Positions 1,213 through 62,162 of a stretch of 64,000 nucleotides of DNA are shown here, one piece after another; position 1 is the stretch's first letter, and each line of letters begins with the position of its first letter. The translations under genes and the position numbers were made by a program. The DNA lies in NCBI GenBank assembly GCA_938040995.1, contig CALHZT010000015.1, positions 1 to 64,000 on the forward strand. The letters are read 5' to 3'. This stretch comes from an uncultured Pirellulaceae bacterium. GTDB lineage: Bacteria > Planctomycetota > Planctomycetia > Pirellulales > Pirellulaceae. The notes below the pieces were generated by a model, which saw only the letters and a program-made list of their open reading frames with translations, searched no databases and was not told the origin of the DNA.

Positions 1213-1375
1213 CGATGCATCGTAGGCGTTCACGGATATATTTACGTTTCCCCAGGTTCGAAAGGGGCAGGCACAAGTTTTCGGCGTCCGCAGAGCGAAA
1301 TAAGTCAGTTTGCCGCCGAAAAATTGAGCCAGACCCTTGCCGGCGTGAACGGTTACGATGCATCGTAGGCGTTCA
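1213..1375 (+). repeat. Dispersed intergenic repeat family A, copy 1, flanked by a 20-bp direct repeat (cgatgcatcgtaggcgttca at 1213-1232 and 1356-1375)
   Basis: gttcacggatat..acgtttccccaggttcga.agggg.caggcacaa.ttttcggcg..gcgaaataagtcagtttgccgccgaaaaattgagcc recurs near 46.7, 51.0 and 59.9 kb; partial copies at 60.5 and 61.8-62.2 kb. Confidence 0.85.
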
Positions 1376-1732: not shown

Positions 1733-3841
1733 CTATTTCCGAAGACTTCGGAGCAACCAATCCATATCCAATTGCCCGGACTGTGGCAATCTCGCTATCA
1801 AGTTGCCGCCCAGTCGGTCGTAATGAATTGCTGACTGGCCGCCGGCATCCTGAAAACGGTTGGATCCAATGGTTGACTTGAGTTGCCGGATCAACTCCGA
1901 CGCATGTTCCGGCGACTGGACAAGATCCTTGACGGAATGGAACCCAACTTCGAACCGCTGCTCTTCGGCAGCCGGCGTGGTAATCTCCAGATAGCCGCCT
2001 CCCGCATAGCGGTAAGTCAGTTGTAGCTGCGAGAGCCACTCACGGAGCGCGACATCCAGTTCGCCCTGTTGAATCGTTGGCGGAGCCGGTGAATCTGGCC
2101 CCCAACCGGCTTTGGCCAATGCGTGCCAGTCGGGAAGAATGCGAATCGACTTGCCAGCGATTCGGTCAAACTCCTGAATCATGTCTCCCAACGTTCCGGC
2201 TCGACGACGCTTGGGTGGAATCTTCTGCGACAGGTTTCGCTGCTCTCGCCAAAGGTCCGAATCGTCGGCGATCTTTCGCTGCGGCGCCAATCCATGATCG
2301 TTCCGCAAACGCTCCAGCAGATGCATCACGCGAAAGTGTACCGCTTCGGTACCCCTGGTCTCGAGCATCGTTTTCGTTGGATTAATCGTGCCCTGCCCTC
2401 CGGCCGCTTGCCACGATTCCGGAACGACCATCGTCTGGACAAGCTTGCCAAGCGATTCTTCCGTCCATCCAACCTGGAGAAGGTCACCAATAAAGTGTGA
2501 GTATTCGACTTGCTTGCCAGAAATCGCAGCCGCACGTTCAACGATGATATGCCCGGCGTCCGTCCGGTACCCGAGCTTTACCCGCTTCAGGGCCTGCTCC
2601 AGTGCCTGCGCGTGTGAAATATCTTCACCGATGACTCGTACGCGACGATCAAATTTCATTCGCGACCATGCCAGCGCTTCGGGCCGAATCGTCACGGGAA
2701 CCGTGCTTGCGTTCGAGATAAACTTCAACATCGACTCGAGCCCGAGGGTCAAGTTCGTCGCCGAAAAGGTATCGTTCAGTCGCAGGTCGGCGTCAATCTC
2801 AGGCAACGGGCGACGCCCGGGGACTTCGTGGCTGGACGAGTCTGGCAAAGCCGGCAATTGTGACAAAGCCGGCCGGGAGCTTTCCGTGGCGACAGGCTGA
2901 ATGTCCTCGGCGCCGATGTCGCCAAAGTTATCAATCGGTGTCGAGGTCGCTGGCCGCTCTTTTTCAAACGAAGCCGGCTCGACAGGCTGCGCCACGCTTG
3001 CAGCATTTTGAACTGGCGATGATTCGGGGATCATGTCCACCAAATCCATTTTGGCTTTGCTTTCAGCGCTCAGCTCAACCGCAGCATCATCGTTGGCTTT
3101 TTCGGGTAACGGTGACGCATCTGCCACGTCCGATGGTTGGAGTTTCGGTGGAACTTCCGGTTTTGTTCCTGGCTGCGTTCCAGGTTTCGATTCTGGCTGA
3201 GCCGCCGGGGCAACATTTTCACCGACATCGACGGTCGCAACGTTTTGAATAGTCGTGGCTGGTGCGGGAACGTTCGGTCTCGTCATCCGGTTCGACGCAA
3301 GATACGCGACTCCTGTCGCAAGTCCAACGCCGACACTAGCCGCCAACAGATAGAACGTGTACGTTCGCGATTTTGACGTAGCTTCTGCGGACCAGTTCTG
3401 ATTGGGTCCAATCGGAGCGACTACGGGCGCATCCTGATCAGGCGCCGAACCGAAGGCGAATTCCTGCGTGGCTGGTTCCACACTCTTGGATGCCGCCGGT
3501 TGAGAATCGTCTGATGGATCGCCGAGCAAACTGTCGACTTGATCGTAAGAGGCTCCACTCGCGACCGTCGCCAGCTTTGCGAGGTCGGCATCGTTGGAGT
3601 GCCGACGCTTTCGTACCGTCGGTCGTGAGGCAGGCGCTTCGCCATTCATGCCAGTCTCAGGCGCTGCTGAATCGTTGGATTCAGCCGAATGATCTTCGTT
3701 CGACTCTGGCACCGGCACCGGACGTTCGATGAGGACCATTCCGCCACAGCTTGGGCATGCATAGATCTGCCCGATCGCTTCGGGTTTACGAACCTTCAGC
3801 GCGGCATGGCATGTTGTGCAGTTTATGGAAAACGGCTCCAC
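1733..3841 (-). CDS. Hypothetical protein: N-terminal CxxC..CxxC zinc-ribbon-like segment, single TM segment, large C-terminal region
   Basis: 702-aa ORF; CTTCHAALKVRKPEAIGQIYACPSCGG at N-terminus; TM TFYLLAASVGVGLATGVAYLAS. Confidence 0.85.
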   Translation of the reverse strand: MEPFSINCTTCHAALKVRKPEAIGQIYACPSCGGMVLIERPVPVPESNEDHSAESNDSAAPETGMNGEAPASRPTVRKRRHSNDADLAKLATVASGASYDQVDSLLGDPSDDSQPAASKSVEPATQEFAFGSAPDQDAPVVAPIGPNQNWSAEATSKSRTYTFYLLAASVGVGLATGVAYLASNRMTRPNVPAPATTIQNVATVDVGENVAPAAQPESKPGTQPGTKPEVPPKLQPSDVADASPLPEKANDDAAVELSAESKAKMDLVDMIPESSPVQNAASVAQPVEPASFEKERPATSTPIDNFGDIGAEDIQPVATESSRPALSQLPALPDSSSHEVPGRRPLPEIDADLRLNDTFSATNLTLGLESMLKFISNASTVPVTIRPEALAWSRMKFDRRVRVIGEDISHAQALEQALKRVKLGYRTDAGHIIVERAAAISGKQVEYSHFIGDLLQVGWTEESLGKLVQTMVVPESWQAAGGQGTINPTKTMLETRGTEAVHFRVMHLLERLRNDHGLAPQRKIADDSDLWREQRNLSQKIPPKRRRAGTLGDMIQEFDRIAGKSIRILPDWHALAKAGWGPDSPAPPTIQQGELDVALREWLSQLQLTYRYAGGGYLEITTPAAEEQRFEVGFHSVKDLVQSPEHASELIRQLKSTIGSNRFQDAGGQSAIHYDRLGGNLIARLPQSGQLDMDWLLRSLRK

Positions 3842-10790: not shown

Positions 10791-10852
10791 ATTCAGAACC
10801 GGTTCTGAAAGTTGGGCAGTTCAAAGACTTACGGGATGGCACCGGACAGTAC

Positions 10853-10930
10853 GTAGTGGATCTTGTTAAAGATCCTTACAGCAATCGCGTTTTTGCGGAC
10901 AGCTGAGGGATCTTTAACAAGATCCACTAC
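10853..10930. repeat. Long inverted repeat (hairpin), copy 1
   Basis: Perfect 23-bp arms gtagtggatcttgttaaagatcc (10853-10875) and ggatctttaacaagatccactac (10908-10930); near-identical copy at 12688-12766. Confidence 0.9.
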
Positions 10931-11142
10931 CTGTGAATTCAAATCGCTTGAGAAGGATTGAGCTCTAGCCGGTACTACGACCACCAGTTTTGAAATGCCC
11001 ACTCGGCTCTGCCATTCACGGATACAGTGCAGTTTTTCATTTGATCCAAAGAGAATGAAGTTCGATGTTGAATCGGATTGCCGCTGGCTCACGCTGCGCG
11101 CCATAATGCGGCGAGTTGACCGCCACGCCCGGGAGAATCGTT

Positions 11143-12591: not shown

Positions 12592-12687
12592 TGCAATTAG
12601 TTCGTAGTCCCGCCTACAGGCCAATACTGCTCTATTGAGAGTCGGACCACATTAAACTTACGGGATGGCGGCCAGTTCAAAGTGACC

Positions 12688-12766
12688 GTAGTGGATCTTG
12701 TTAAAGATCCTTGCAGCAATAGCGTTTGTCGCGGACGACTGAGGGATCTTTAACAAGATCCACTAC
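12688..12766. repeat. Long inverted repeat (hairpin), copy 2
   Basis: Same 23-bp arms at 12688-12710 and 12744-12766, spacer related to copy 1. Confidence 0.9.
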
Positions 12767-12849
12767 CTGCAAATTCAAATCGTTTTTGCAGTATTGGCCT
12801 TCGGCGGAATTGCAGATCAAAGTCGCACACCAAAGTTGAGGCGGGCATT

Positions 12850-17885: not shown

Positions 17886-18060
17886 AACACCAGAACGCTT
17901 ATCGACGTTAAGGCGAAAGGCGAAAGGCGAGTGAGAATTCACCAACAAGACGTCGGTGGCCGTGGCGGCTCAAGAACGCAAGTTGATAATTTTGCCCGCC
18001 GCTCGCCTGTCAACCGGACATCGCAACCGGGCAAATTCGTCGCGATGCCGATTTTCTTTC

Positions 18061-28600: not shown

Positions 28601-31600
28601 TGCCGGCTGGATCTGGACTGACCATTGTGGCTGGCACAGTGTCGCCGACATCGACGAACGGCAACCCAGTCGAGTATTGCATTCTTTGCGACGCTAGCGA
28701 CTGGACTACGTCCTACCCAACCAGTGGTTTGGCGACCGGCGTACGCTGGCTCTATGGCGACGTGCCACTTAACACGGCCCTGCCGGACATGCAATTCGAT
28801 GTGCTCGTTCCATTCGATGCGCAGAACAATGAACAGTTTGAGAATACAGCCGTCATCTCGACACCGAGCGATCCTTCCGAAGAAGAATGGCGCAGCAGTA
28901 GCGCCGGAATCACGGCGATTCAGGTCGGGGCCATGTCGATTGGCAAAACTGCCATCACTCCACTCGTTCCCGAAGATACGCTCCTTGTCTGGGAGATGGG
29001 AGTGGGAAATGTATCTGAAGATAAAGACCTCCCATTCATTGACGTCGTTGATCTCCTTCCATGGAACGGCGACGAAGATGGCTCGATGTTCAGCGGCAAC
29101 TTTACGAATGTGGCCATCACGGGACTGGGACCTGGCCTTGATGTCTACGTCTCCAATGTTCCCGCCTCGACACTTGATTCCCAGGATGGGATGACTGACG
29201 GTTTCGCGGACCCCGGCGTCTCGGGCGTTCACGGATGGTATTCGGCTCCCGGCGCTCCCGGCGGTCAATACGAGTACACCCTTGCTGAAGTAGCCGCCGG
29301 AACAGCCCCGTTCGGCATGAGTGACATTACATCGTTCCGTGTTGTAAGTGACGGCAGCGTGAATCCCCAATTGCCAGCGGGCATTTCGACCACATGGCGA
29401 CTGGAACTGACACCCATCGACAATATCGGTATCCCGTCGGATATGTACGTCAACGACGCAGCCGTGCGAACCGATCCGGCTGTTCTGGCCGAGCCGACGC
29501 GTTCCGCGCCGTCGAAGATCAGTGTCGTCATGCCCGACATCGAGGTCATGAAGGAAGTCTGCGTCAATGAGTTTGGGCCTTGCGATCCGACAGATGACAC
29601 GCACTGGATCTCGAATGCGGTCTACAACGACGATCCCGATCCAACGTGGCGAATCAAAGTCGAGAACACCGGAACCAGCGACTTGACTAGTGTCACGGTC
29701 ACCGATCCTTCGTTGCCGACCGGCATGAGCCTGGTGGCTGGCTCGGTGGTTGCAGCGTCGGGCGACGTTTCCAGTTTCCTGCCAACATGGGAACTGTCGC
29801 TAAGTGCAGGTGCGACGAGCTATCTCACGTTCGACACGATGCTGGATGTTGTGCCAGACACTGCCGCGTTCCCAAATAGCGTATCCGTGGCAGCCGAAGA
29901 TGCGTTTGGCAACACTGCAAGCGACAGCGACGACGCGTCCGTTGAGTACGCCCGCGAAATCGGGGTGTCGAAAGAGCAAGTCGCGTTTGCCCAGAATGCA
30001 GCCAATCCAGACACTTACGACGTGACTTATCGAGTCGTCGTGGAGAACACCGGCCTTGTCGTGCTCGATGATATTCAGGTGACCGAAGACATCAACGCCG
30101 CATTCGGGCCTGGTTTCGTGGGCGTCGTTTCGCCTCCGTCCATCATCGCGTCCAGCATTTCTGCCGGCGGTTCGGTGCCGCTGACCAATGCCGCGTGGGA
30201 CGGTAACGATTCTGGCACCGGTGATGCCGAGATGTTTGACGGTAGCAGCGGAGTGCTGGGCGGCGGTGACAACTTTACGATTGAGTACGTCATCACGATC
30301 GATACCACGCTGCTTCCGGATGGTGGAAACGAAACCAATCAGGTTACCACCAGCTCGAATGACGGTGAAGCAACCGATCTGTCCGATGATGGAAGTGACC
30401 CGGATGGTGAAAACCCGGATGCCGACGGCGACATGGGTACCTCAGACGACCCGACTCCATTGCAAATTCCTGATATTCGAGTCGCCAAGCAAGTCGACGG
30501 GCCTTACGTCGACAACAACGACGGCACGTGGACGATTCCCTATCAGTTGGTGCTCGAGAACACGGGAACTGTTGTTCTTGATAACGTGACACTTACGGAC
30601 AACATCCAGTCGCAACTTGGTGCGGCTGTATTCAACAGTATTTCCAATGTTGCACTCGACGTTTCGGGAGTCACCGGGACCGCGCCGGGCCTTGCGGGTA
30701 CATGGAACGGCACGGACGGCAGCAACATTCTTGACGGTACGGGAATGCTGGAAGCCGGCGATGTGGTGGTCGTAACCTTTGATTTGCTTGTGAACGGATC
30801 GGCACTCGCAGCAAACTCGCCGCTGACCAACCAGGCCGAGGCGACCGGGGAAGATCCGTACGACAACCCGGTTGATGACCTTTCCGACGATGGATCTGAT
30901 CCGACCTCGGACAATTCTGGCTCGCCCGGCGACGATGGCATGGGCGGTACCAATGATCCCACGCCGATTCTTATTCCGGACATTGCATTGGCCAAGGAAG
31001 TCGTTGGAGCACCCGTTCAACTGGCGAATGGAAACTGGGAAGTCGAATATCAGTTCGTGCTACAGAATGTCGGTACCGTCGATCTGATGAACTTGCAGGT
31101 CACCGAAGATTTGCACATGGAATTTGGTACGGGCGTCTACGTTTCACTGATAACACCACCAACCATTGTCTCCGGACCATCGTTGACCGGTTCCGCCGCA
31201 CCGATCCTGGATGCCAGTTGGGATGCCGGGCTTGCGGGATCAGGCAATACCGATCTCTTCAACGGCACGTCGGGTACTCTCGCGCCGAACGACCAGATCA
31301 GCGTTCGCTTTACCGTCGAGATTGACCCGGATGCAAGTGGAACCGCCACCACTTTGGACAACCAGGCGGATGCGACTGCCGAAGACGAAAACGGCATGGC
31401 AGTGATGGATATGTCGGACAGCGGATCCGATCCGAACAGCGACAATCCTGGCCAGCCGGGTGATACGGGCGGGCCGAACGATCCAACGCCGCTGGCATTG
31501 CCGGACGTTGATCTCGCCAAACAAGTCAACGGGCCATACGTCAACAATGGCGATGGTACGTTCACGATTCCGTACCAGTTGGTTCTGGAGAATACTGGAT

Positions 31601-34600
31601 CCGTCGACCTCGTAAACCCGTCCATCACCGATGACATTCAGACACAGCTCGGTGCTGCTGTCTACAACAGCGTGACCAACCTTATGCTCGACACCTCGGG
31701 CGTAACGGGAGGAACGGCCCCAGGACTCGACGGCACGTGGGACGGTACGAATACCAACAACATTCTCGACGGAACCGGAAACCTCGTTCCCGGCGACTCG
31801 GTCGTTGTCACCTTTGACCTCGTTGTAAACGCTTCGGCTCTTGCAGCAGCCTCACCGCTGACGAATCAGGCCACGGGGACGGGCGACGCTCCAACCGGGC
31901 CAGTTAGCGACTTGTCCGATGATGGCGACGATCCAAACGGAGACAATCCCGGTGCCCCCGGAGACATGGGAACCGCCGACGATCCAACGCCGATCCTCAT
32001 TCCGGATATTGGGTTATCGAAACAAGTCGTCGGTGCACCTTCACAACTTGCCAATGGCAACTACTCAGTCGTCTACGAACTCGTGATGATGAACACGGGA
32101 ACCGTTGATCTCATGAATGTGCAGATCAGCGAAGATCTTGAAATGGAATTTGGCACGGGAGTCTTCGTTGGCATCCTGGCGGCTCCAACGGTTACGGCAG
32201 GGCCGACCGATGCAGGCTCGACGGCTCCGACCCTCGACGCGAACTGGGATGGTGGGCTCGCGGGAAGCCCAAACAGTGACATCTTCAACGGCACAACCGG
32301 CACCCTCGTCCCCGGCGACGCAGTGACTGTACGATTCGTGGTCGAAGTCGACCCGGACGCGACCGGTGCAGCTACGAGCCTCGAAAATACTGCGGAAGCC
32401 AGCGGCGTCGACGAAAACGGCACGACGGTGATGGACGATTCGGATGACGGAGCCGACCCAAATAATGGGGAAGACGATCCGACTCCATTGGACATTCCAG
32501 AGATCAGCCTGGTAAAGCAGGTGAACGGTCCTTACACCGACAACATGGACGGTACGTTTACGATCCCGTACCAGTTGATCCTCGAGAACACGGGAACCGT
32601 TGATCTTGCCAATCCAACGATATCGGATGATATCTCAGCGCAGTTGGGATCGGCGTTCAATATGGTCGATTCGGGCAGCCTCCTGCTGGATGGCAGCGGA
32701 GTCGTTGGTGGAATCGCTCCGGGTGTGGATCCGGCGTGGACCGGAGCCGACTCGGCGAATCTGCTCGACGGAAGTGGGACGCTGGCACCTGGCGATTATG
32801 TCACGGTGACTTTCGATCTCGTCGTCAACGCGGCTGAGTTGGCGGCTAACTCACCGTTGACGAACCAGGCATCGGCAACCGGTGAAGGGCCATCCGGGAC
32901 GATTGCTGATCTTTCTGATGATGGCGACGATCCCAACAGCGACAACCCGGATGCACCGGGTGACATGGGCACCACGGACGATCCAACGCCGATTTTGTTG
33001 CCAAACATCGGTCTCTCCAAGCAAGTCGTTGGAAGTCCGACGCAGCTTGCCAATGGCAATTATGAAGTCGACTATCAGATGGTGTTAATGAACACCGGCA
33101 CGGTCGATCTCATGAATTTGCAGATCACCGAAGATCTCGAACTGGAATTTGGGGCAGGCATCTTCGTATCAGTCGCCACATCGCCCACCATTACGGCAGG
33201 GCCTGGCGATCCGGGTTCGACAGCGCCAATCATTGATGCGAGCTGGGATGGTGGACTCGGCGGCTCGGGCAATGACGGCATATTCAACGGCACGAGTGGA
33301 ACCCTGGTTCCCGGGGACTCGATCACTGTAACGTTCACTGTTGAAGTCGATCCGGATGCGACCGGCGATTCGACTCCGCTGGAAAATACGGCGGTGGCGA
33401 CGGCCGAAGACGAAAGCGGTACGGGCGTCATGGACGACTCGGACGACGGCGCCGACCCGAACAACGGCGAAGACGATTCAACGCCACTCGATATCCCCGA
33501 GATCAGTCTCGCGAAGCAGGTGAACGGTCCGTACGTTGATAATGGCGACGGCACCTGGACCATTCCGTATCAGTTGGTGCTGGAGAATATCGGTACCGTC
33601 GACCTCGCGAATCCGAGCATCATGGATAACATTCAGATGCAGCTGGGAGCCGCTGTCTACGACAGCGTGACGAGTCTGGCGGTGGATGTTACTGGTGTAA
33701 CAGGCGGTACCGCACCCGGTTTCGATGCAACGTGGAACGGAACCGATGCTTCGAACATTCTGGACGGCACCGGGAACCTCGCCCCCGGAGATACCGTCGT
33801 TGTCACGTTTGATCTGCTTGTAAACGGTTCCGCGCTGGCAGCGGCATCGCCGCTAACCAACCAGGCGGAAGCAACGGGCGATGGACCCGGCGGAACTATC
33901 AACGACTTGTCTGATGATGGTGACGATCCACACAGCGACAATCCCGACGCGCCGGGCGATATGGGCACAACTGACGATCCGACTCCGATTCTGATTCCGG
34001 ATATTGGACTGGCCAAACAGGTCGTGGGATCACCAACGCAGTTGGCGAACGAGAACTGGGAAGTCACCTACCGGTTGGTCCTGCAAAACACGGGAACGGT
34101 CAATCTAAACAACCTTCAGATTACTGAGAACTTGCAGATTGAATTTGGCGCCGGCGTCTTTGTGGGCGTGAGTGCAGCACCAAGCGTTCTTTCAGGTCCT
34201 TCGTTGCCTGGATCGATCGCACCGATTCTTGACGCCAGCTGGGATGGTGGGCTTGGCGGAAGTAGCAATACCGGAATCTTCAATGGGACATCCGGCACGC
34301 TGGTTCCCGGCGACATCACCGTACTCAACCTGACGGTCGAGATTGATCCGGACGCTACGGGGGCTTCCGACACGCTGGACAACCAGGCAGACGCATCAGC
34401 CACCGATGACAATGGCACGGAAGTCAACGATCCCTCCGACGACGGAGCCGATCCAAATAATGGTGAAGACGACCCGACACCGTTGGTGATCCCGGAGATT
34501 GGCGTTGCCAAACAGTTGAACAACGTTGTCGAACTCGCGACCGGCATGTACGAAGCCGAATACGTGGTGGTCGTTGGGAATGTTGGATCGGTCGACCTGT

Positions 34601-37600
34601 TCAATCTGCAAATTACCGAAGATCTTGCCGCCGAATTCGGTGCTGGATATTCCAGCTTGTTGACTCCACTGGCCATCACGTCGAGTACCGCGACGTTGGA
34701 TCCAACACTCAGCGCCGGTCCATGGGACGGATCTGGAAACAACGACTTCTTCGATGGCATGTCGGGGCAACTTCAGCCTGGAGAAAACGTCACGCTGACG
34801 TTCACCATCCTGCTCGATACGCTGGCCGGTGATACCACCGACCCAATGGACTATACGAACCAGGTCGAAGCTTACGGCGAATCGAGTGGTGGAACGCCAA
34901 CAACGGACCTGTCGGACGATGGAACAAATCCAAACACGGACAATGGTGCGGGAACGACGGACGATCCGACTCCGTTCTACACGCCTCAAGTGCGTTCGGC
35001 CAAGGACCACGGCCCCGCCGTGCCCAATGCAGACGGCACCTACACCGTCCCGGTGACGATCACCATTACGAACACCGGTACTTCACCGTTGATGAATCTG
35101 TCACTGACGGAAGACATTGCTGCCTCGTTCGGCAACGCGTTTCTGGGCGTATCGAACATGGCGATCGCACCCGTTGGTCCATACACCGGCGTCTTGCCAA
35201 CAGTGAATCCTGCCTGGGGCACGGCCGACACATCCGTCGATGTGATTAATCCTGCACAGTCGAACGAGACCTTGCTCACCGGCGAGAGCTTCGAGTTCAC
35301 TTTTGATGTGGTCGTCGATCCCGATGCGATGGATGACATGTCGCAATACCTGATGAACCAGTCAACGATCACTGGTGACGGGATAAACCACGACGGAGAA
35401 GTCGTCACCGTTATGGACCAGTCGGGTCATCCTGACGCGACGGACCCCGATGGCATTGACCAGGATAATCCTTCACCTCTAGATATCCCGGAGGTCCGCA
35501 CGACGAAAGAATTCACCGGTGCCGTCGCCAATCCGACGACTGATGGATACTGGGACGTGACGTTTGACATGGTTGTCGAGAATACGGGTTCGACTGACCT
35601 CACCGGGATTGATCTCTACGACGACCTCGTCACGCAATGGGGCGGAGTCTTCATTGGAGTCGTCAACGCCACGATCGACGACACGACAGGCGTTGGTAGT
35701 GGCATGCCACCGACGTTGAACTACGGAGCGACTGCCGGAGCCGTACCATTCGATGGTGGAAACTCCGGTGCAGGAAGTGACAATCTGCTAAATAACGATG
35801 GCCTCCTGGAACCGGGTGAGTACGTCACGATCACCCTGACAGTGACGGTCGATCCCGATGCAACCGGCATGTCAGGTGAGCTGGAGAATCAGTCGACGGC
35901 AGCGGGTGATGGACCCGGCGGTGAAGTCACCGACATGAGCGATGACGGAACGAACCCGAACAGCGACAATCCCGGTGGCGACGGTGACATGGGGACTTCG
36001 GACGATCCCACACCGGTCGTGCTCCCGGATATCAGCGTCACGAAAGAGGTTTCGGGGACTCCCACCGAGCTCGCCAACGGGAACTTCCTTGTGCCGTACA
36101 GCCTCGTGCTGGAAAACATCGGCACCGTTGAACTGGACAATCTGCAGATCATCGAAGATCTGGAATCTTCCTTCGGAGCCGGCACCTTTGTCGGAATCGA
36201 CACGGCACCGTCGATCGCAAGCGGCCCATCTGTTGCGGGTTCGACGGCTCCAGTCTTCGGAACGTGGGACGGCGGACTGAGCGGTAGCGGCAACATCAAC
36301 ATCTTCGATGGCATGAGTGGCGTCCTTGCTGCTGGCGATTCAATTGTCGTCGAGTTCGTGGTTGAGGTCGATCCTGATGCGACGGGAAGCAGCCAGCCGC
36401 TAGTGAACCAGGTCATGGCGACTGGAGACGATCCACTTGGAAATCCGGTGATGGACGACTCGGATGATGGCAACGATCCGAACGGTGACAATCCGGGATC
36501 ACCGGGTGACATGGGCACCACCGACGATCCGACTCCGTTGGACCTACCTCAAGTCAGCGTCACCAAAGACGTTTCGGATGTCACTCCAAACGGAAGCAAT
36601 TTTGACGTAACGTTCGATCTCGTCCTCGAAAACACCGGGACCGTGGATCTGACAGACGTTGACCTGCTTGATGACCTCGCGACTCAGATGGGGAATTCGT
36701 TCGTAGGCATCGTGAATGTCACGATGGACGATTCGAACGTAACATCGGGAACCCCGCCGACACTCAACTTCGGTGGTACAGCCGGCGCGACGCCGTTCGA
36801 TGGCGGAATGTCAGGTGCCGGCAGTCAGAATCTATTGAACGATGATGGCTTGCTCGAACCCGGCGAGTACCTCACCTTCACCCTGACGATTACCGTCGAC
36901 CCGGATGCGACGGGCATGTCGATGGCTCTTGAGAACCAGGCCACGGCGGCTGGCGACGGGCCGGGTGGAATCGAAGTCATGGACGAGTCGGATGATGGTA
37001 CGGATCCGAACGGTGACAATCCCGGTGCCGACGGCGACATGGGGACCAATGACGATCCAACTCCGATCGCCCTCCCTGACATTAGCGTTACCAAGGAAGT
37101 CGCCGGTGCCCCCACCGAGTTGGCAAATGGTAACTTCCTCGTTCCGTACAGCCTTGTACTCGAGAATACCGGAACCGTAGACCTCGACAACCTACAAATC
37201 GTTGAAGATCTCGCAACTCACTTTGGTGCCGGTGTATTCATCGGAGTCACCACGGCGCCGTCCATTACCAATGGCCCTTCGTTAGCCGGTTCAATCGCAC
37301 CGACGTTTGGAGCTTGGGACGGCGGACTGGCTGGCAGCGGCAACACCACCATCTTCAACGGCACCAGTGGACTGCTCGTGCCTGGCGATTCGATCGACGT
37401 GGAGTTTGTCGTCGAGGTTGATCCGGATGCAACGGGAACCAGTCAGCCACTTGTCAATCAGGTGGCGGCGAGTGGCTCGGATCCGGATGGTGGATTCGTT
37501 AGCGACTTGTCCGACGACGGCGACGACCCGAACGGTGACAATCCCGGTTCGCCTGGCGACATGGGGACAACTGATGATCCGACACCACTCGAACTGCCTC

Positions 37601-40600
37601 AGGTCCGAGTCACCAAGGACGTGACGGATGTTGTTGCCAACGGCGAGAATTTCGATGTGACATTCGACATGGTGCTTGAAAACACCGGCACCGTGGATCT
37701 GACGGGTATCGACTTGATCGATAACCTCAACACACAAATGGGAGCCATGTTCGTCGGTGTCGTGAATGCGACGATTGATGGCTCGGGCGTTGCTTCCGGG
37801 ACGCCACCGACACTCAACTATGGAGCAACCGCCGGTGCGACTCCATTCGATGGTGGTCTGTCCGGAGCCGGCAGTGACAATCTGCTAAATGATGATGGCC
37901 TGATGGAGCCGGGTGAGTCGGTGACGGTGACGATCACGATTACAATTGATCCGGATGCGACCGGTGTCTCGATGCCGATCGAGAATCAGGCCACGGTTAT
38001 CGGTGACGGGCCCGGAGGCGTCGAAGTCGACGACCTTTCGGACGACGGCACGGACCCGAACTCCGACAATCCTGGCGAAGACGGCGACATGGGCACCAAC
38101 GATGATCCCACGCCGGTGGCTTTGCCGGACATCAGTGTGACCAAGGAAGTCTTCGGTACCCCGGTCGAGTTGGCGAATGGCAATTTTGAAGTCGCCTACC
38201 GGTTGGTGCTTGAGAATACCGGATCAGTCGATTTACAGAATCTTCAAATCGCGGAAGATCTTCAAACCCACCTCGGAGCCAATGTGTACGTCGGCATCAC
38301 ATCGGCACCGACAATCTCGGTGGGTCCAGCCGACCCCGCATCCATCGCGCCTTCGCTAGGCACGTTTGACGGAGGACTCGGCGGATCAACAAATACCAAC
38401 ATCTTTAACGGCACCAGCGGATTGCTCGTGCCCGGTGACTTCCTCGAAGTCCTGTTCTCGATCGAAGTCGATCCGAACGCAAATGGCTCTGGCGGAACGC
38501 TGGAGAATCAGGTTACGGCGACGGGGCAGGACGAAAACGGTATCGACGTTTTGGATGAGTCGGATGATGGCAACGATCCGAACGGAGACAATGCCGGCTC
38601 CCCAGGCGACATGGGAACAACCGACGATCCGACTCCGCTGTCGCTCCCTCAAATCAACTCGGCCAAAGAAGTCATCGGTGCGCCGCAACAAGTCAGCGGG
38701 ATGCCGACGCATTACGACGTCACGTACCAAGTCGTACTTGAGAACACAGGTAACGTGACTCTCGACGGCCTCGACCTTTATGACGATGTGGCGACAGAAT
38801 TCGGAGCCGCGTTTGTGGCGATATCAGGTTCGCCAGTCATCACGACAAACTCGCTGGGTAATCCTGCCAACTTGCCGACGTTGAACGCTGGCTTCGTACC
38901 CGACACGTCGATGAGCATGTTCAACGACGATGGGATGTTGGCACCGGGCGAGACCATCACGCTGCAATTCGTTGTCACGGTAGACAGTATCGCCGCGGAT
39001 GGAATGACGCTACTGAACCAGGCCGAAGTGATCGCAGATGATCCGGCGACGGGCGCTGAAGATGGCCCCAGCGACTTGTCCGATGACGGAAGTGATCCAG
39101 ATGATGTGAATACTGGTTCACCGGGAGACATGGGGACAACGGATGACCCAACGCCCGTGGTACTGCCAGATGCGACAATCGGTTTGGCCAAAGCGGTCGT
39201 GGATGTCAACGACCTCACAGCGACGATCGAATTCAACATCGAGAACTTCGGCAACGTTCTCGCGCATGATGTTCAGATCGCCGACGATCTCGACAGCGTT
39301 TTCGGCGCGGGCAACTACACCGTCGACAGCATCTCGTTGACCATGCCACCAACGGACCCGTCGAGCAGCATCAATGTTGAAACAGGATTTGATGGTTCGG
39401 GTGTTTCCAACTTGCTTGATGTCACCGCGACGAACACACTCGCGGTCGGTGATGAAGCCACTGTCACGATTGAGGTGACAGTCATTAACGTCATCGACCC
39501 GGACGGGCCCGGACCTGCCGAAGTCGGCGAGTACGAAAACACCGCGATCGTGATGTCGACGGACGGAAACGGAAACGAGTACATGGACGACTCGACGGAC
39601 GGCACCGATCCGGATCCGGACGGTGACGGAGGACCGGAAGAGAACGATCCGACTCCGATTGAAGTGGGTGCAGAAGCACCTGTCGAGATTTCCAAGTCGG
39701 CAACGGTTGTCGGTGACATGATTACCTACACCATGCGAATCGAGAATGTCGGGAACACAACGGCTCTCGACGTCAGCATCGTGGACAATCTCGACATCGT
39801 ATTTGGCGCCGGCAACTACACCGTTACAGGAACATCCATCCTGACGCTTCCGACACTGGCGGGAAGTTCGCTGTCACTCAATACAAACTACAGCGGCACG
39901 AATGGTTCAATCGCCGGCGTACCGAACAATGAAATCTTCGACACGTCCAACAGCAACACACTGGAAGATGGCGACTTTGCCGAAATCCAGGTCACGATCG
40001 ACGTCAACAAACTGGTCGATCAGGACGGCAGTGGACCGCTTGTGTTCGGCGAGTACGAAAACACCGCGATGGTCTCGAACGTAGATCCGACCGGCAACAT
40101 GTACGATGGTGAAGACAACACGATCACCGATCCGCTCGTGGCTGACGGTACGATTGATCTCGAAAAGACCGCAGAAGTCATCGACGATACGACGGTCAGG
40201 TTCACCTTGACCATGACGAACACCGGCAACTCACTCGCGAGCAATATCGAGTTGACGGAAGACCTCGCCGCTGTTTTTGGAGTCGGCAATTACACGATCG
40301 ACGCGATCACGATGCCCGTGCTTCCAGCCGATGCGGACAGTTCCCTTGCATTGAATCTCGGGTACACCGGCGGCACCGGTATCACTTCTGGCGTACCGGA
40401 CACGCAAGTGTTCAACTCGCTCGTGAACAACACACTCGATGTGGGCGACACGGCAACGGTTGAGATCTACATCACGGCCAACGAAATCGTCGATCAGGAT
40501 GGGGCTGGCGGCATGGCCCTTGGCACTTACCTGAACACTGCCACAGTTGCCAGTGAAGATCCAAACGGCGGAGACTATGACGACGTTGCCGAAGATGGAT

Positions 40601-43560
40601 TCGAGCTTCAGGACGACTACACCGTCGGCGTCGCGAAAGATTCCAACTGGGACGACGCGACAGACACGGGCACGTTCACGTTCCACCTCGAGCACTTCGG
40701 AAATACGGAAGCGCTAAACCTGTCCATGACCGAAAATCTGGATGCGGTCTTCGGTGCTGGCAACTACACATTGACGAGTGGCCCAACCCTCGTGAGTGGA
40801 CCGGGCACGATCTCAACCAACTCGGACTTCGATGGAAGTGGCAATACCGAGTTGATCAGTGCGGGCAGCTCGCTGTCACCGGGCGAAACGGCCGAGATCG
40901 AAATCGGCATCGCTGTCACGTGGATCGCCGATACGCAAGGCAACGGCCTTGGCAACTATGAAAATCAGGTTGAGCTGACGACAGAAAACTCCGACGGCGA
41001 CATGAATTCAGATCTGTCAGTCGACGGTACGGACCCCGATCCGGATGGTGACGGCAATCCTGACGAAAACAGCCCATCGACTGGCTTCCTGACTCCTCAA
41101 GCATGGGTCGGCGGAGCAAAAACGGCAGTCGTCGCTGAAGACAACGATTCCGTCACCTTCGATTTTTATCTGGAACACCTCGGCAACACACCCGCGAACA
41201 ACATTACGCTGACCGAGAACCTTGATGATGTCTTTGGCGCCGGCAACTACGTTGTCACGAATATTGACTTGATCTCCGGCCCATCGGGACTGGCGGCCAA
41301 CGGCGGATTCAACGGAAACTCCGATGACGGCGTGGTCCTCGTCGGCAGCACGATGAATCCTGGCGAAACGGCTACGATTCGCATCGAAGTCGGACTCACC
41401 GGTGCCTTTGGTCCGTACGAGAACCAGGGCATCATCACGACTGAGGACGGAGATGGCGGTACTTACGATGACGCAACCCACGACGGTACGGACCCGGATC
41501 CGGACGGCGATGGCGATCCACGCAACAATGACGACCCGACGGAATTTGAAATCGCGAGCGGCGAACTGAGTGGCAACGTCTACGTTGACAGTGATGGCGA
41601 CGGCTTCTTTGACCCTGACGAAACACCGATTCCTGGTGTCATCATTACGCTGACCGGAACGGACATCAACGGGAACCCAGTCACATTAACCACCACGACG
41701 GCAGCGGACGGTAGCTACTTCTTCGACGACCTGCTGCCCGGCGACTATACGGTCACACAAACCCAGCCGACGGGGTTCATTGATGGAATTGACACGCTCG
41801 GCGACTCAGGCGGATTCGTCACCAACGACACATTCACAGTGAGCCTCGGTACCGACGGAGAACCGTTCGAGGCGACCGAATACAACTTTGGTGAAGCTGG
41901 CATCGATCCTCTTCACGTTGGAAAGGATCCGTTCCTTGCTTCTGCCGACAACGGTGTCAGTGAACCTCTTGCGGCTCGAACCGAACCGGTATCGTTTGAA
42001 CAAACGGATGCAATCGAGGAAGAGGGAAGTGTCCTTCGTGTCGTCGGAACGAACCAGTCAGACAAAATCACGGTTCGTGCAGGAATCGACGAACATGTCA
42101 TTGTTGTCAATGGCGTCGGCTTTGAATACGACGCGGCGGACTATGACCGAATTGATGTGCGTGGCCTGGGCGGAAACGACAGCATCGAAATCTTCGGATC
42201 AGAGCTTGATGATCAGGCTGACCTGCTCGCCAATCGCGGCAAAGTTGTCAGTCAGAGTTATCACATCGGATATGCCAGTTTTGAGAACGTGAGCGTACAC
42301 GGCGGTAAAGGCGGAATGGACCGGGCGATCATGGCTGATTCCGTCGGCAACGACGTGTTCGTCGGATCGGCAACGTTCGCCTCGATGCGTGATATCAACA
42401 ACGCCTATCGAAACGAGTCGCGTGGATTCGAAATCGTCACCGGCAATTCCGTGCTGGGTGGTTTTGACCGGGCAGTCGTCTATGGAACTTCGCAGGCAGA
42501 CCATCTGCGGGTCATGCCAGAGTTTGCCCAATTGACTCGTGGCAACAGTCAAACCGAGTTCCGGGCCAACCAGTTTGATCGCTTCGAAGCCAAAGGCCTC
42601 GGAGGAAACGACGTGGCCGAGTTTACTGATAGCGTTGGAAACGACCAGATTACGCTCGAGCAAAACAGAACGGTGATGATTGGAAACGGATTCCATAATA
42701 CCGCAACCGACTTTGCCACCGTTCACGCCCGGGCAACACGAGGCGGAAATGACCAGGCAACCTTCTTTGATTCAGCTGGCGATGACATCTACATCGTACG
42801 CCCTGACGATTCGATCTCGATGACAGGACAAGGTTACCAGCATCGCGTCTGGGGATTCGATGGCTCGACCGCCTACGCCACCAACGGTGGACGGGACCAT
42901 TCCTTCCTCTACGACACGGATGGCGACGATGTGTTTATTGCTCGCCCAACCAGCTCTTCGATTACCGGTCGTATTGATGGCCAAAGTTACCAGCATACGA
43001 CTCATCACTTTGAGGTGATGACTGGAAATGCCGTGAACGACGGGTTCGATGCGGCGTTCGCCTACGACAGTGCCGGTGATGATCAGCTGACTATCCGTCC
43101 GGACTACGCGGAGGTACGTGGCGCCAATGGCGATTTCACGCACCGCATGCTGAACTTCCAGACGGTGCTGGCCCACGGCAACGCGGGCGGAAACGATACT
43201 GCGACATTCCTCGACAGCAGCGTCTTCTCGCCAGACCAGGATACCAACGACAGATTTTTCTCGGCGGGAAATCGGGCTTCGTTGAATCAGATGGGCACCG
43301 AATTCCGCAAAACGGCAGAAGGGTATGAGACGATCAACGCCTTCTCAACGGGTGGCGACGATGTTGCTGTGTTCGAAGACGTTCAGGTCTTCGAACGACT
43401 GGAGGGGCGAGGCTCCGACGCATCGATCGCAAGACGAGGCACACGAGTAAATGGCTTTGAAACGGTACAAGCTTCGAGCAAAGCCAACCACAATCCAACG
43501 GCTGATCTTGAAATTGTGAATTATGTCTTTGAGCAGTTCGGTGACTGGTTCAACCTTTAG
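25693..43560 (+). CDS. Giant (~5955 aa) surface/secreted multidomain protein: LEPR-type N-terminal motif, DUF4347, >20 DUF11-like repeats, SdrD_B/Cna_B-like domain, C-terminal GGND repeat region
   Basis: Single uninterrupted 17.87-kb ORF; domain motifs listed separately. Confidence 0.95.
25951..26460 (+). other. DUF4347-like domain within the giant protein
   Basis: [19 protein letters not shown]...[36 protein letters not shown]...[44 protein letters not shown]. Confidence 0.85.
29527..41558 (+). repeat. Tandem protein-coding repeat array (DUF11-like units, ~490-540 bp each, >20 units) in three main types
   Basis: Unit boundaries marked by SDDG(S/D/N)DPNxDNPGxxGDMGTxDDPTPxxLP; types LANGNxxVxYxLVLxNTGTVDL, [26 protein letters not shown], and VTKDVxDVxxNGxxFDVTFDxVLENTG. 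Confidence 0.93.
41557..41901 (+). other. SdrD_B / Cna_B-like domain within the giant protein
   Basis: [81 protein letters not shown]. Confidence 0.85.
42031..43400 (+). repeat. C-terminal degenerate GGNDxATFxDSxGDD repeat region within the giant protein
   Basis: [92 protein letters not shown]. Confidence 0.8.
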
Positions 43561-46453: not shown

Positions 46454-46679
46454 CATTCGCACTCACGCCAGATTTATTGCAGCCGTTTGCCTGACCTCGG
46501 CCGTTCGCGCCAAGCAACCCTCCTCCGACGCAGTGGTGGCTTGCGAAGAATGAGCAGGGCATACCACGTGTCGCGAGAGAAGGGTCGGAGCCTAAGCGAC
46601 GGGGAGGAGCGTCCATACGCGTCGATATATCTGCAACAGTTCGTGTCCGTTCTGGAGCAACGTAACATCCGCTGCAAGG
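46454..46679 (+). repeat. Dispersed repeat family B, copy 1
   Basis: Near-identical to reverse complement of 61879-62085 (e.g. cgaagaatgagcagggcataccacgtgtcgcg, gggtcggagcctaagcgacggggaggagcg). Confidence 0.9.
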
Positions 46680-46985: not shown

Positions 46986-48944
46986 ATGATTGCTCGACTA
47001 AGAACCTGGTGGCAGCTGAGAACCGGTGAATATGACACACCGTTCGATGGTGATATGCCCGCCTGGTTCCTGAGTATCATCCTTCATCTGGTTCTGCTCA
47101 TTCTCGTTGCAGCCCTGACCATTCCCAATCGCGACGAGCCAGCTACGCTGACGTTGACCAGCACGATTGCGGAGCCGGTCGATCAGGTGGAACCCAACGA
47201 GTTCGACTTCACCGAGATCCCGGTCGACGACATTGGCGCTGATAGTACTTCCGACGCCGAGATGGCAATTTCGGAGGCACCGGAGATTGCCGAAATTCCC
47301 GAAGTCGCCATGACTGAGTTGCCGATGCTCGATTCGGCACCCGTCGAGTTCGATCCCGTCGCGGACATGGAATCAGGCCTTCAATTGAACGAAGACATCG
47401 CGGTCAAAGGAGCCACCGGTGTTGGCACGACGGGCGCGGCAGGCGCTGTGGACAGGATTACCCACGAGATTCTTCTGTCGATCGAGTCGCGACCAACGAC
47501 GGTGATCTGGATGTTTGACCAGTCAGCGAGTTTGGCGACTCAGCGTGCGTCGATCCGCGACCGGTTCCTGCGCATCCATGAGGAGCTTAATCATGTCGCG
47601 AGTGCCGACCCTTCGTCCAGCGTTCCGTCGCTGCTCTCGTCCGTTGTCGCTTTTGGCGAGAACATGACGCTCATGACGACTGAATCAACCAACGAAATTG
47701 ACAAGTTACGCGATGCGATCAACAAAATTGAACGTGACGATTCCGGCAAGGAATATGTGTTCAGCGCGATCAAGGCGCAGGCGTTGCGGCACAAGTCGAC
47801 TCGTAAGTCGCGAAATGTCATGATCATCGTGTTCACTGACGAAGCCGGCGATGATCATCAGGTGCTGGACGACTGCGTCAACGTTTGCCGCCGATCGGAG
47901 ATTCCGGTTTATGTCGTCGGCATTCCGGCTCCGTTTGGCCGTGTGAAGGCCGCCGTGAAGTGGGTGGACCCGGATCCGGAATATGACCAGACGCCCACGG
48001 TTGCGTACGTCAATCAGGGCCCGGAGACTTTGTATCCAGAACGTATCAAGCTTCGATTCCCCGGACAGAGTGATGAGGATCCAGTCATCGATTCCGGCTT
48101 TGGGCCATTTTCGCTGACTCGGCTCTGTTACGAGAGTGGTGGAATTTATTTCGCTGTGCACCCGAATCGTCGAGTCGGCAAGGATGTGCGTTTTCGGAGA
48201 ACGCAACCTTACACGGCACATATCAAGCGGTTCTTCGAGCCCGAGGTCATGCGACGCTATCGACCGGAGTATATTTCGATCGACAACTATGAGAAGCACG
48301 TATCACGTCTGCAAAATCGCGCGTCGTTGGTTGTGGCGGCTCAGCAATCCTGGGCGAACAGCCTGATGGCTCCGCGAACGAGGTTCGTCAAGCGGTCCGA
48401 CGCCGGCTTTGTCCGCAGTCTGACGTCGGCTCAAAAAGCCGCCGCAGTTCTCGAACCACAAATCGAGAGTTTGCACCAGACTTTAAAAGCGGGCGAAGAC
48501 GATCGCAGTCGCGAACGTTCCGCGCGTTGGCAAGTTGGCTATGACCTTGCCATGGGGCGCACCCTCGCGGCCAAAGTCCGGACGGAAGGCTACAACCTGA
48601 TGCTCGCGAAAGCGAAACAGGGCATGAAATTCACGAAAGAGACGAATAATACGTGGATCATGAAGCCGTCGGACAAGATCGAACTCGGCAGCCAGATGAC
48701 TCGAAGCGCCGAGAAAGCGATCAGCTATCTCGAACGAGTCGTCAAGGAACACCCTTCGACTCCATGGGCTTATCTTGCCGAACTGGAATTGAAGCATCCG
48801 ATTGGTTGGGAATGGGAAGAGTCGTTTACAAAGATGGACCCGCCCAGAGAGCGTAACGCGAACCCGAATCCTCCGATGCCGCGCGATGAGCAAAAACGCA
48901 TGCTCAAAAAGAAGAAACCCAAACGGGCGCCGCCAAGTCTGTAG
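46986..48944 (+). CDS. von Willebrand factor A (VWA) domain membrane protein
   Basis: VIWMFDQSASLATQRASIRDRF (MIDAS-like DxSxS), NVMIIVFTDEAGDDHQVLDDCVNVCRRSEIPVYVVGIPAPFG; N-terminal TM FLSIILHLVLLILVAALTI. Confidence 0.9.
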   Translation: MIARLRTWWQLRTGEYDTPFDGDMPAWFLSIILHLVLLILVAALTIPNRDEPATLTLTSTIAEPVDQVEPNEFDFTEIPVDDIGADSTSDAEMAISEAPEIAEIPEVAMTELPMLDSAPVEFDPVADMESGLQLNEDIAVKGATGVGTTGAAGAVDRITHEILLSIESRPTTVIWMFDQSASLATQRASIRDRFLRIHEELNHVASADPSSSVPSLLSSVVAFGENMTLMTTESTNEIDKLRDAINKIERDDSGKEYVFSAIKAQALRHKSTRKSRNVMIIVFTDEAGDDHQVLDDCVNVCRRSEIPVYVVGIPAPFGRVKAAVKWVDPDPEYDQTPTVAYVNQGPETLYPERIKLRFPGQSDEDPVIDSGFGPFSLTRLCYESGGIYFAVHPNRRVGKDVRFRRTQPYTAHIKRFFEPEVMRRYRPEYISIDNYEKHVSRLQNRASLVVAAQQSWANSLMAPRTRFVKRSDAGFVRSLTSAQKAAAVLEPQIESLHQTLKAGEDDRSRERSARWQVGYDLAMGRTLAAKVRTEGYNLMLAKAKQGMKFTKETNNTWIMKPSDKIELGSQMTRSAEKAISYLERVVKEHPSTPWAYLAELELKHPIGWEWEESFTKMDPPRERNANPNPPMPRDEQKRMLKKKKPKRAPPSL

Positions 48945-48999
48945 TGCGGTGTAACGAACCACTCGGTTGCGTTTCTTGTTATTGCGCCATTTTCAGCTA

Positions 49000-49180
49000 C
49001 GAAGTGGTGGCATATCCCCTGCCGGTGGCCTTGGCCACCGGAATAACTTCGAGAATTACTCAAAGCCCCGAAGGCGGCGCCACAGTTGGTGAATCTATGT
49101 CGCCGCCTTCGGGGCTCTTCGTCAAAACTTTCAACCGGTGGCCAAGGCCACCGGCAGGGGTTTTGAAGGCCCTTCGGGCC
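49000..49180. repeat. Palindromic dispersed repeat family C, copy 1 (full length)
   Basis: Outer 26-bp perfect arms cccctgccggtggccttggccaccgg (49016-49041)/ccggtggccaaggccaccggcagggg (49135-49160); inner 16-bp arms agccccgaaggcggcg/cgccgccttcggggct. Confidence 0.92.
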
Positions 49181-50700: not shown

Positions 50701-50997
50701 TCGCAAGATGTTCGTAATCTCGGCTTTAGTCCGCTCAGTTAAGACCAACGCGTCTCTGCCCGGAACGGGCCCAGCAAGCCAGTTTGGGGGCAAACGCAGC
50801 GAGCCCCAAGATCAGTACCAGGACGACGCGCTTGGACGGTATTGTTGCGCTTTTTCAGCCACGAAGTGGTGACACATCCCCTGCCGGTGGCCTTGGCCAC
50901 CGGGATGACTTCGAGAACTGCTCGAAGCCCCGAAGGCGGCGACACAGTTGGTGAATCTGCTTCGCCGCCTTCGGGGCTCTTCGTCAGAACTTTGTGA
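50701..50997. repeat. Composite repeat D+C, copy 1 (C part lacks its right arm)
   Basis: tcgcaagatgttcgtaatctcggctttagt..cgctcagttaagaccaacgcgtctctgcccgga... then C-family gaagtggtgacacatcccctgccggtgg; matches 53583-53926. Confidence 0.88.
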
Positions 50998-53582: not shown

Positions 53583-53926
53583 TCGCAAGATGTTCGTAAT
53601 CTCGGCTTTAGTTCACTCAGTTAAGACCAACGCGTCTCTGCCCGGAAAGAGGCCTAACAAGCCAGGATTGGGCAAGCGCAGCGAGCCCAAAGATCAATGC
53701 CAGCTCGACTCGCTTGCACGTTTTAAAGTTGCTATTTCAACCACGAAGTGGTGACACATCCCCTGCCGGTGGCCTTAGCCACCGGAATGACTTCGAGAAT
53801 TGCTCGAAGCCCCGAAGGCGGCGACACAGTTGGTGAATCTGTATCGCCGCCTTCGGGGCTCTTCGTCAGAACTTTAACACCGGTGGCCAAGGCCACCGGC
53901 AGGGGTTTTGAAGGCCCTTCGGGCCA
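53583..53926. repeat. Composite repeat D+C, copy 2 (full length)
   Basis: Direct-orientation match to 50701-50997 plus intact right C arm ccggtggccaaggccaccggcagggg. Confidence 0.9.
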
Positions 53927-59797: not shown

Positions 59798-59861
59798 AAA
59801 TGGTGAGCGGTTCGGCGCCAGCCGCCGGTGGGTTCGCTGGCTTCGCAGTTTTTTTGTACAC

Positions 59862-59960
59862 GCGGGCAAGGGTCTGGTCCAATTTTTCGGCGGCAAACTG
59901 ACTTATTTCGTTTTGCGGACAACCGCCGAAAATTTGTGCCTGACCTCTCGAACCTGTTCA
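59862..59960 (-). repeat. Dispersed repeat family A, copy 4
   Basis: cgcgggcaagggtctggtccaatttttcggcggcaaactgacttatttcgttttgcggacaaccgccgaaaatttgtgcctgacctctcgaacctg = reverse complement of the A consensus. Confidence 0.87.
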
Positions 59961-60015: not shown

Positions 60016-60447
60016 CTATCGACGTCGAAAGCGGCTCCACGGCGTCTCCTTCGGTCGTGGAAAACCCCAGTGAGCTCCAAGAGCATTCGCAGCATCTTCG
60101 GGATCAGCAATCTCTCCCCACGCACCATTGCGCAAAAAAGCGTGCGCAAACTCATGAGCAATGACATACCAGGCAAAATCTTTATTGCAATCAGCCAACA
60201 AAGGTTTCAGGACGATACTCCGACTGGAGTCTCCCGTCGGACCGGGCATCGCCATGAAGACAGTCGAACCTTGTCCCGGAACATAGTTATCAAGCGCAAT
60301 CGTAAAACCAGGGTCGTGCAGAAAATCTTCCCGCACTTCCGTTGGCAGCAAATTCAGGACATGTTCGACTCGCGCACGAAGATCCGGACAAACTTCCAAC
60401 CCCTTCAGCAAGTCGTCAATTTCGGTCATGAATTCCTGCGGATGCAA
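60016..60447 (-). CDS. Small protein with zincin-type HExxH motif
   Basis: DFAWYVIAHEFAHAFLRNGAWGEIADPEDAANALGAHWGFP: HEFAH plus downstream acidic/AN..A..WGF segment. Confidence 0.75.
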   Translation of the reverse strand: MHPQEFMTEIDDLLKGLEVCPDLRARVEHVLNLLPTEVREDFLHDPGFTIALDNYVPGQGSTVFMAMPGPTGDSSRSIVLKPLLADCNKDFAWYVIAHEFAHAFLRNGAWGEIADPEDAANALGAHWGFPRPKETPWSRFRRR

Positions 60448-60463
60448 TCGGGACTGATTTGGT

Positions 60464-60536
60464 GTAACCGTTCACGCGGGCAAGGAGCTGTGACCCTCTC
60501 GAACCTGAGGAAAAATCAATATCCGTGAACGGTTAC
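60464..60536 (-). repeat. Dispersed repeat family A, copy 5 (internally deleted, intact terminal inverted repeats)
   Basis: gtaaccgttcacg (60464-60476) and cgtgaacggttac (60524-60536) perfect 13-bp TIRs around A-family ends. Confidence 0.87.
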
Positions 60537-60710
60537 GATTCGATAGTGCACTTCGCATCTGTTGCACCTGACAAACAAGATTGTAGCCGGGATCTAATGA
60601 TGCGTGTTCTTCAAGCCGGCATTTGCAGAACCTGCCATTGCCTGCCCAAACGCGATTCCATCCATTAAATTGAGTCCTTGTTGACTCTTCGAATGAACAA
60701 GGAATGCAAA

Positions 60711-61834: not shown

Positions 61835-62162
61835 TGAGCGGAGGACAAACGCCGAAAATTTGCACCTGACCCAGGGGGCCTTGCAACGGATTTTACGTTG
61901 CCCCGAACGGACCCGAACTGTTGCAGATACATCGACGCGTATGGCCGCTCCTCCCCGTCGCTTAGGCTCCGACCCTCCTCACGCGACACGTGGTATGCCC
62001 TGCTCATTCTTCGCATGCCACCACTGTGTCGGAGGAGGGTTGCTTGGGGCAAGCGGCTGCAATCAATCTGGCGTGAGCACAAATGCCACGCAATATCGAA
62101 TTTACAACACCCCAGCCTGCCCCTCTCGAACCTGGGGAAACGTAAATATCCGTAACGGTTAC
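61835..62162 (-). repeat. Dispersed repeat family A, copy 6, interrupted by family B
   Basis: Minus strand: cgtaaccgttacggatatttacgtttccccaggttcgagaggggcaggc | B | gggtcaggtgcaaattttcggcgtttgtcc. Confidence 0.82.
61879..62085 (-). repeat. Dispersed repeat family B, copy 2
   Basis: Reverse-complement match to 46454-46679. Confidence 0.9.

Follow-up and report, generated by a model that had tools for sequence, protein, structure and literature searches.

A 73-bp internally deleted MITE copy in an uncultured Pirellulaceae genome and the IS66-family transposase that likely mobilised its family

The window, the whole 64,000-nucleotide stretch of DNA analysed here, contains a short element for which an earlier note, made from the letters alone, had described a length of 73 bp and perfect 13-bp terminal inverted repeats, GTAACCGTTCACG and CGTGAACGGTTAC. 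The letters at 60464-60536 agree exactly with this description. The element and its flanks are as follows.

60464..60536: family A MITE copy of 73 bp with an internal deletion, on the minus strand with respect to the consensus (the left end of the consensus is GTAACCGTTCACGGATATTG)
60464..60476, plus strand: 13-bp terminal inverted repeat GTAACCGTTCACG
60524..60536, minus strand: 13-bp terminal inverted repeat, for which the plus strand reads CGTGAACGGTTAC
60456..60463: left flank GATTTGGT, candidate decayed target-site duplication, identical to the right flank at 6 of 8 positions
60537..60544: right flank GATTCGAT, putative partner of the left flank in a decayed target-site duplication

The 73-bp copy is located just upstream of a small reading frame on the minus strand (about 60016-60430, start inferred by eye), the translation of which includes HEFAH, as in zinc peptidases. 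Related copies had been reported at 1.2, 46.7, 51.0 and 59.9 kb, and all four were found, with both ends present only in the 1.2-kb copy.

1222..1356, plus strand: nearly full-length family A copy, 135 bp, with both ends
1214..1221: 8-bp target-site duplication GATGCATC, left of the 1222-1356 copy
1357..1364: 8-bp target-site duplication GATGCATC, right of the 1222-1356 copy
46679..about 46796, plus strand: family A copy surrounded by pieces of repeat family B; its left end is GTAGCCGTTCACG, its right end is lost
50994..about 51104, plus strand: diverged family A copy with left end GTGATCGTGCACG, right end lost
about 59850..59958 (boundaries approximate), minus strand: family A copy that starts near consensus position 30, at CAGGTTCGAG, left IS66-type end lost

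The right terminal repeat that the earlier note assigned to the first of these copies is indeed present, at 1344-1356 rather than at 1345-1358. The copy at about 59850-59958 has counterparts elsewhere in L155, L161, L162 and L164, which likewise start at consensus position 30 (CAGGTTCGAG) and have no left end.

When the 73-bp copy is compared with a 137-bp relative (e.g. C288:10371-10507), it can be observed that its positions 1-22 and 28-73 align, while in the middle 69 bp of the relative are swapped for the 5 bp AGCTG, a net loss of 64 bp. The interior is therefore a shortened version of the longer repeat, as had been proposed. Judging from this alignment, the 73-bp copy is derived from the 137-bp element with both ends kept, and this form may either have transposed itself or have shrunk in place.

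The draft assembly of the genome comprises 5.66 Mb in 425 contigs and is 86.5% complete. It holds 170 exact 13-mer ends (83 + 87), compared with 0 + 0 for a reversed control pattern and hence far above chance, and about 140 copies of the family A core, counted by an 18-base piece with at most one mismatch; the several copies seen in the window thus belong to a multicopy family that extends genome-wide. The consensus of 137 bp was derived from 47 distinct copies of 130-140 bp, which are 91-99% identical to it. Candidate elements were taken as paired ends within retrieved stretches of the genome, a non-exhaustive sampling that gave 66 pairs, some of them chance or double-counted pairings, and 37 of the 66 have a length of 137 bp. 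Family A is a MITE of 137 bp that has no gene of its own and numbers well over a hundred copies in this genome. It was absent from 59 relatives, a sample with no other genome of the genus, except for one weak match of 32 bp.

Target-site duplications, for which the earlier note had recommended a search, are 8 bp long: among the 66 candidate pairs the flanks are exact over 8 bp in 25 and match at 7 or more of 8 positions in 37, which understates the true rate, since the pairs include chance and double-counted pairings. In the shift control, moving one flank by 1 base left 2 such pairs, and moving it by 2 or 3 bases left none. Most family A insertions appear to be intergenic, and joined flanks gave no clear case of an interrupted gene, so that other repeats of the genome were used for evidence of empty sites. 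For this purpose the flanks were joined, one copy of the duplication was removed, and a continuous match to an uninterrupted repeat was sought. Three family A copies are nested in other repeats, uninterrupted copies of which represent the empty sites; occupied and uninterrupted copies of repeat families C and D thus coexist in the same genome, which provides the empty sites that had been named as a check. The insertion at G000:C108:29875, with the duplication AAAACGCC, sits within repeat family C, while those at C258 and C28:14129 occupy about the same family D target in opposite orientations. Family D is also uninterrupted elsewhere, besides the window copy listed here.

10848..10943, minus strand: family C copy without interruption, 92% match, representing the empty site of the G000:C108:29875 insertion
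12687..12779, minus strand: second family C copy without interruption, 90% match, likewise an empty site
17934..18008, plus strand: family D copy without interruption, representing the empty site of the C258 and C28:14129 insertions

Furthermore, five family A copies of 415-429 bp hold repeat B at one identical position, and four of these five composites have perfect 8-bp duplications of their own at the A ends, indicating that the composites moved as units. Family A was formerly mobile.

Other repeats were encountered along the way. Repeat family B has the ends TGGGGTGTTGTAAAGTTGGCC and occurs in the window at 46500-46655 and at 61902-62114 (minus strand). It is nested at the same position of family A in L011, L018, L055, L057 and L058 and at another position in L160; the flanking letters suggest that its duplications are 9 bp long, namely GCCAGACCC for the composites and GGGGCAGGC for L160. 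Repeat family C (10848-10943 and 12687-12779) has inverted ends GTAGTGGATCTTGTTAAAGATCC and is possibly another miniature element. Family D (AGAATTTACCAAC...GCGGCTCAAGAACGC) occurs in the window at 17934-18008, in L056 at 2985-3065 and in L059 at 2963-3040. A repeat of about 206 bp with the palindrome AGCCCCGAAGGCGGCG...CGCCGCCTTCGGGGCT is found in the window at 48926-49131, 50788-50993 and 53670-53875, and 30361-41255 is occupied by long coding repeats in a tandem-like arrangement, each unit being about 500-1050 bp long.

Regarding the mobiliser, no intact IS66 gene was detected in this genome, with no PF03050 match over the whole of the incomplete and fragmented assembly; the remark of the earlier note that the window holds no transposase is thereby extended genome-wide for IS66, the family tested. 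A single IS66 remnant was detected by tblastn of the genome with the L211 transposase as the query (C112:5093-5275, 55-63 aa, with an in-frame stop), and it lies no more than about 80 bp from a GTAACCGTTCACG end. This end resembles the left end of the MITE over about 31 bp (p ~0.005 beyond the 13-mer), a likeness that suggests local descent. Consensus position 30, the start point of the copies without a left end, is located about where this likeness stops. In relatives of the same order, IS66 elements bounded by these 13-bp ends and 1466-1558 bp in length were found in L124, L125, L205, L210 and L211, one of the two ends of L205 being off by one base, so that a transposase gene with the same ends, suggested as a further check, does exist in related genomes. 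Facing ends 1.47-1.56 kb apart enclose an IS66 transposase in all five, and likewise, with variant ends, in L224; the longest ORF of L216, which has similar ends, gave no Pfam match. The same-end IS66 elements of the order code for one transposase of 470-501 aa (NF033517; DUF6444 + DDE_Tnp_IS66). Their flanking repeats measure 9 bp in L210 and 7 bp in L211, and no flanking duplications were found at L124 and L125. Between the MITE and the intact IS66 elements examined there is no similarity past the terminal 13-14 bp.

The exact 13-mer was found in 145 of the 397 genomes of the order, with up to 688 copies. IS66 is present in 49 of the 65 genomes with at least six exact 13-mers, a set listed by hand, versus 132 of the 332 others (Fisher p = 1.3e-7, only indicative because the genomes are related to each other and the test is uncorrected for relatedness). 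No IS66 gene was detected in two of the most end-loaded genomes, G198 (601 exact ends) and G377 (688). A MITE need not have a resident partner transposase today. Same-end elements of different sizes, with flanks matching at 7-8 of 8 positions, were also seen in further genomes of the order, and a 134-bp same-end element with a perfect 8-bp duplication was found in L109, on a contig labelled Desulfobacterales. Published IS66/ISBst12 ends start with GTAA or GTGA (PMC12898284, PMC12888890). ISDge4, from the ISBst12 group of IS66, for which the ends are GTGACTACTCAGCA and GTAACTGCTCAGCA, carries a single transposase gene and generates an 8-bp repeat when it inserts (PMC12898284), while other IS66 elements have the ends GTAAGCGTCCGGCG... 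and GTAACCGTCCGGGCA (PMC12888890). The likely mobiliser, a role that we infer, is a transposase of the IS66 family (ISBst12-type, single-ORF).

The reading as a non-autonomous mobile element agrees well with the multiple copies, the conserved ends, the 8-bp duplications, the empty sites and the same-end transposase genes of relatives. Very probably, the family A MITE owed its movement to an IS66-family (ISBst12-type) transposase acting in trans, and the 73-bp copy is an internally deleted member of the family. Under the proposed mechanism, a 137-bp gene-less element with 13-bp terminal inverted repeats would be recognised at its ends by a single-ORF DDE transposase of this type, which would make the 8-bp target-site duplications; the 73-bp copy would have retained both ends while losing 64 bp net of the middle. 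Activity would by now have ceased, or nearly so, in this genome. That the same MITE was moved by a different DDE transposase family using the same GTAACCGTTCACG ends is improbable. Such a family would fit an assembly with no intact IS66 gene, as well as the element-rich genomes in which that gene is likewise missing, but the five IS66 elements of relatives, 1.47-1.56 kb long, bear these ends, the genome's own remnant adjoins such an end, and the GTAA start together with 8-bp duplications are features of IS66.

The core of family A is an imperfect palindrome, GGGTCAGGCACAAATTTTCGGCG...CGCCGAAAAATTGAGCCAGACCC, a hairpin which could be taken as a REP unit, with a Y1 (RAYT-like) transposase moving a palindrome of the REP/BIME type; a few copies do lack the left IS66-type end and start at position 30, and the genome has 11 Y1_Tnp matches. 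However, the core is near only one of the 11 Y1 loci, where it lies within a whole family A element, and 8-bp target duplications are pervasive in family A, whereas Y1 transposition is not known to leave any. This account is very unlikely, and with 10 of 11 loci having no core, the Y1 genes are unlinked to it and a REP/RAYT origin of the whole element was rejected. An ancient REP-like origin, mostly refuted for the whole element, may still apply to the core alone. The spread by duplication of a structured RNA gene, or of a family of cis-regulatory RNAs, would be in keeping with the strong hairpin of the 137-mer, -58 kcal/mol with RNA parameters, but compensatory double changes number 0 compared with 2.4 in shuffles (49 pairs, 47 copies), so that the RNA covariation which the earlier note had set against its own reading was not found. 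Rfam matched nothing but a tRNA in the window, and the target-site duplications and empty sites also oppose an RNA family. With neither covariation nor an Rfam match for the element, this reading was rejected, its probability being close to nil.

Taken jointly, the results allow a broader reading that is offered tentatively, as a possibility that falls short of an even chance: a near-invariant 13-bp end may be used across the order (145 of 397 genomes) by elements differing in size and interior, as the IS66 transposase would need little else; family A may have arisen as a hybrid, through capture of an older palindromic repeat by IS66 ends; and MITEs of this kind, originating from transient IS66 elements, may go on expanding once the source gene has decayed. 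The results link a large class of repeats in planctomycetes, so far unannotated, to a named transposase family, and the 13 bases serve as a diagnostic for locating such repeats. IS66 transposition is insufficiently characterised (PMC12898284), and a minimal substrate of 73 or 137 bp whose ends are defined would help in establishing the requirements of its transposase. The open-access literature searched yielded no account of an IS66-related MITE from planctomycetes, which is weak evidence of novelty.

In comparison with known systems, family A is ordinary in kind, an IS66-type MITE family with a well supported mechanism and a mobiliser that we infer but regard as likely. It resembles the ISBst12 group of IS66 (e.g. 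ISDge4, PMC12898284) in its GTAA ends and 8-bp duplications, but it is only 137 or 73 bp long, is gene-less and shares only the terminal 13-14 bp, or about 31 bp with the local remnant. With REP/RAYT elements it shares the many copies of an imperfect palindromic core, whereas its terminal inverted repeats and 8-bp duplications, and the lack of association with Y1 genes, set it apart. Bacterial MITEs, which are non-autonomous insertion-sequence derivatives, are similar in being short and multicopy, with terminal inverted repeats, target-site duplications, internal deletions and a mostly intergenic location.
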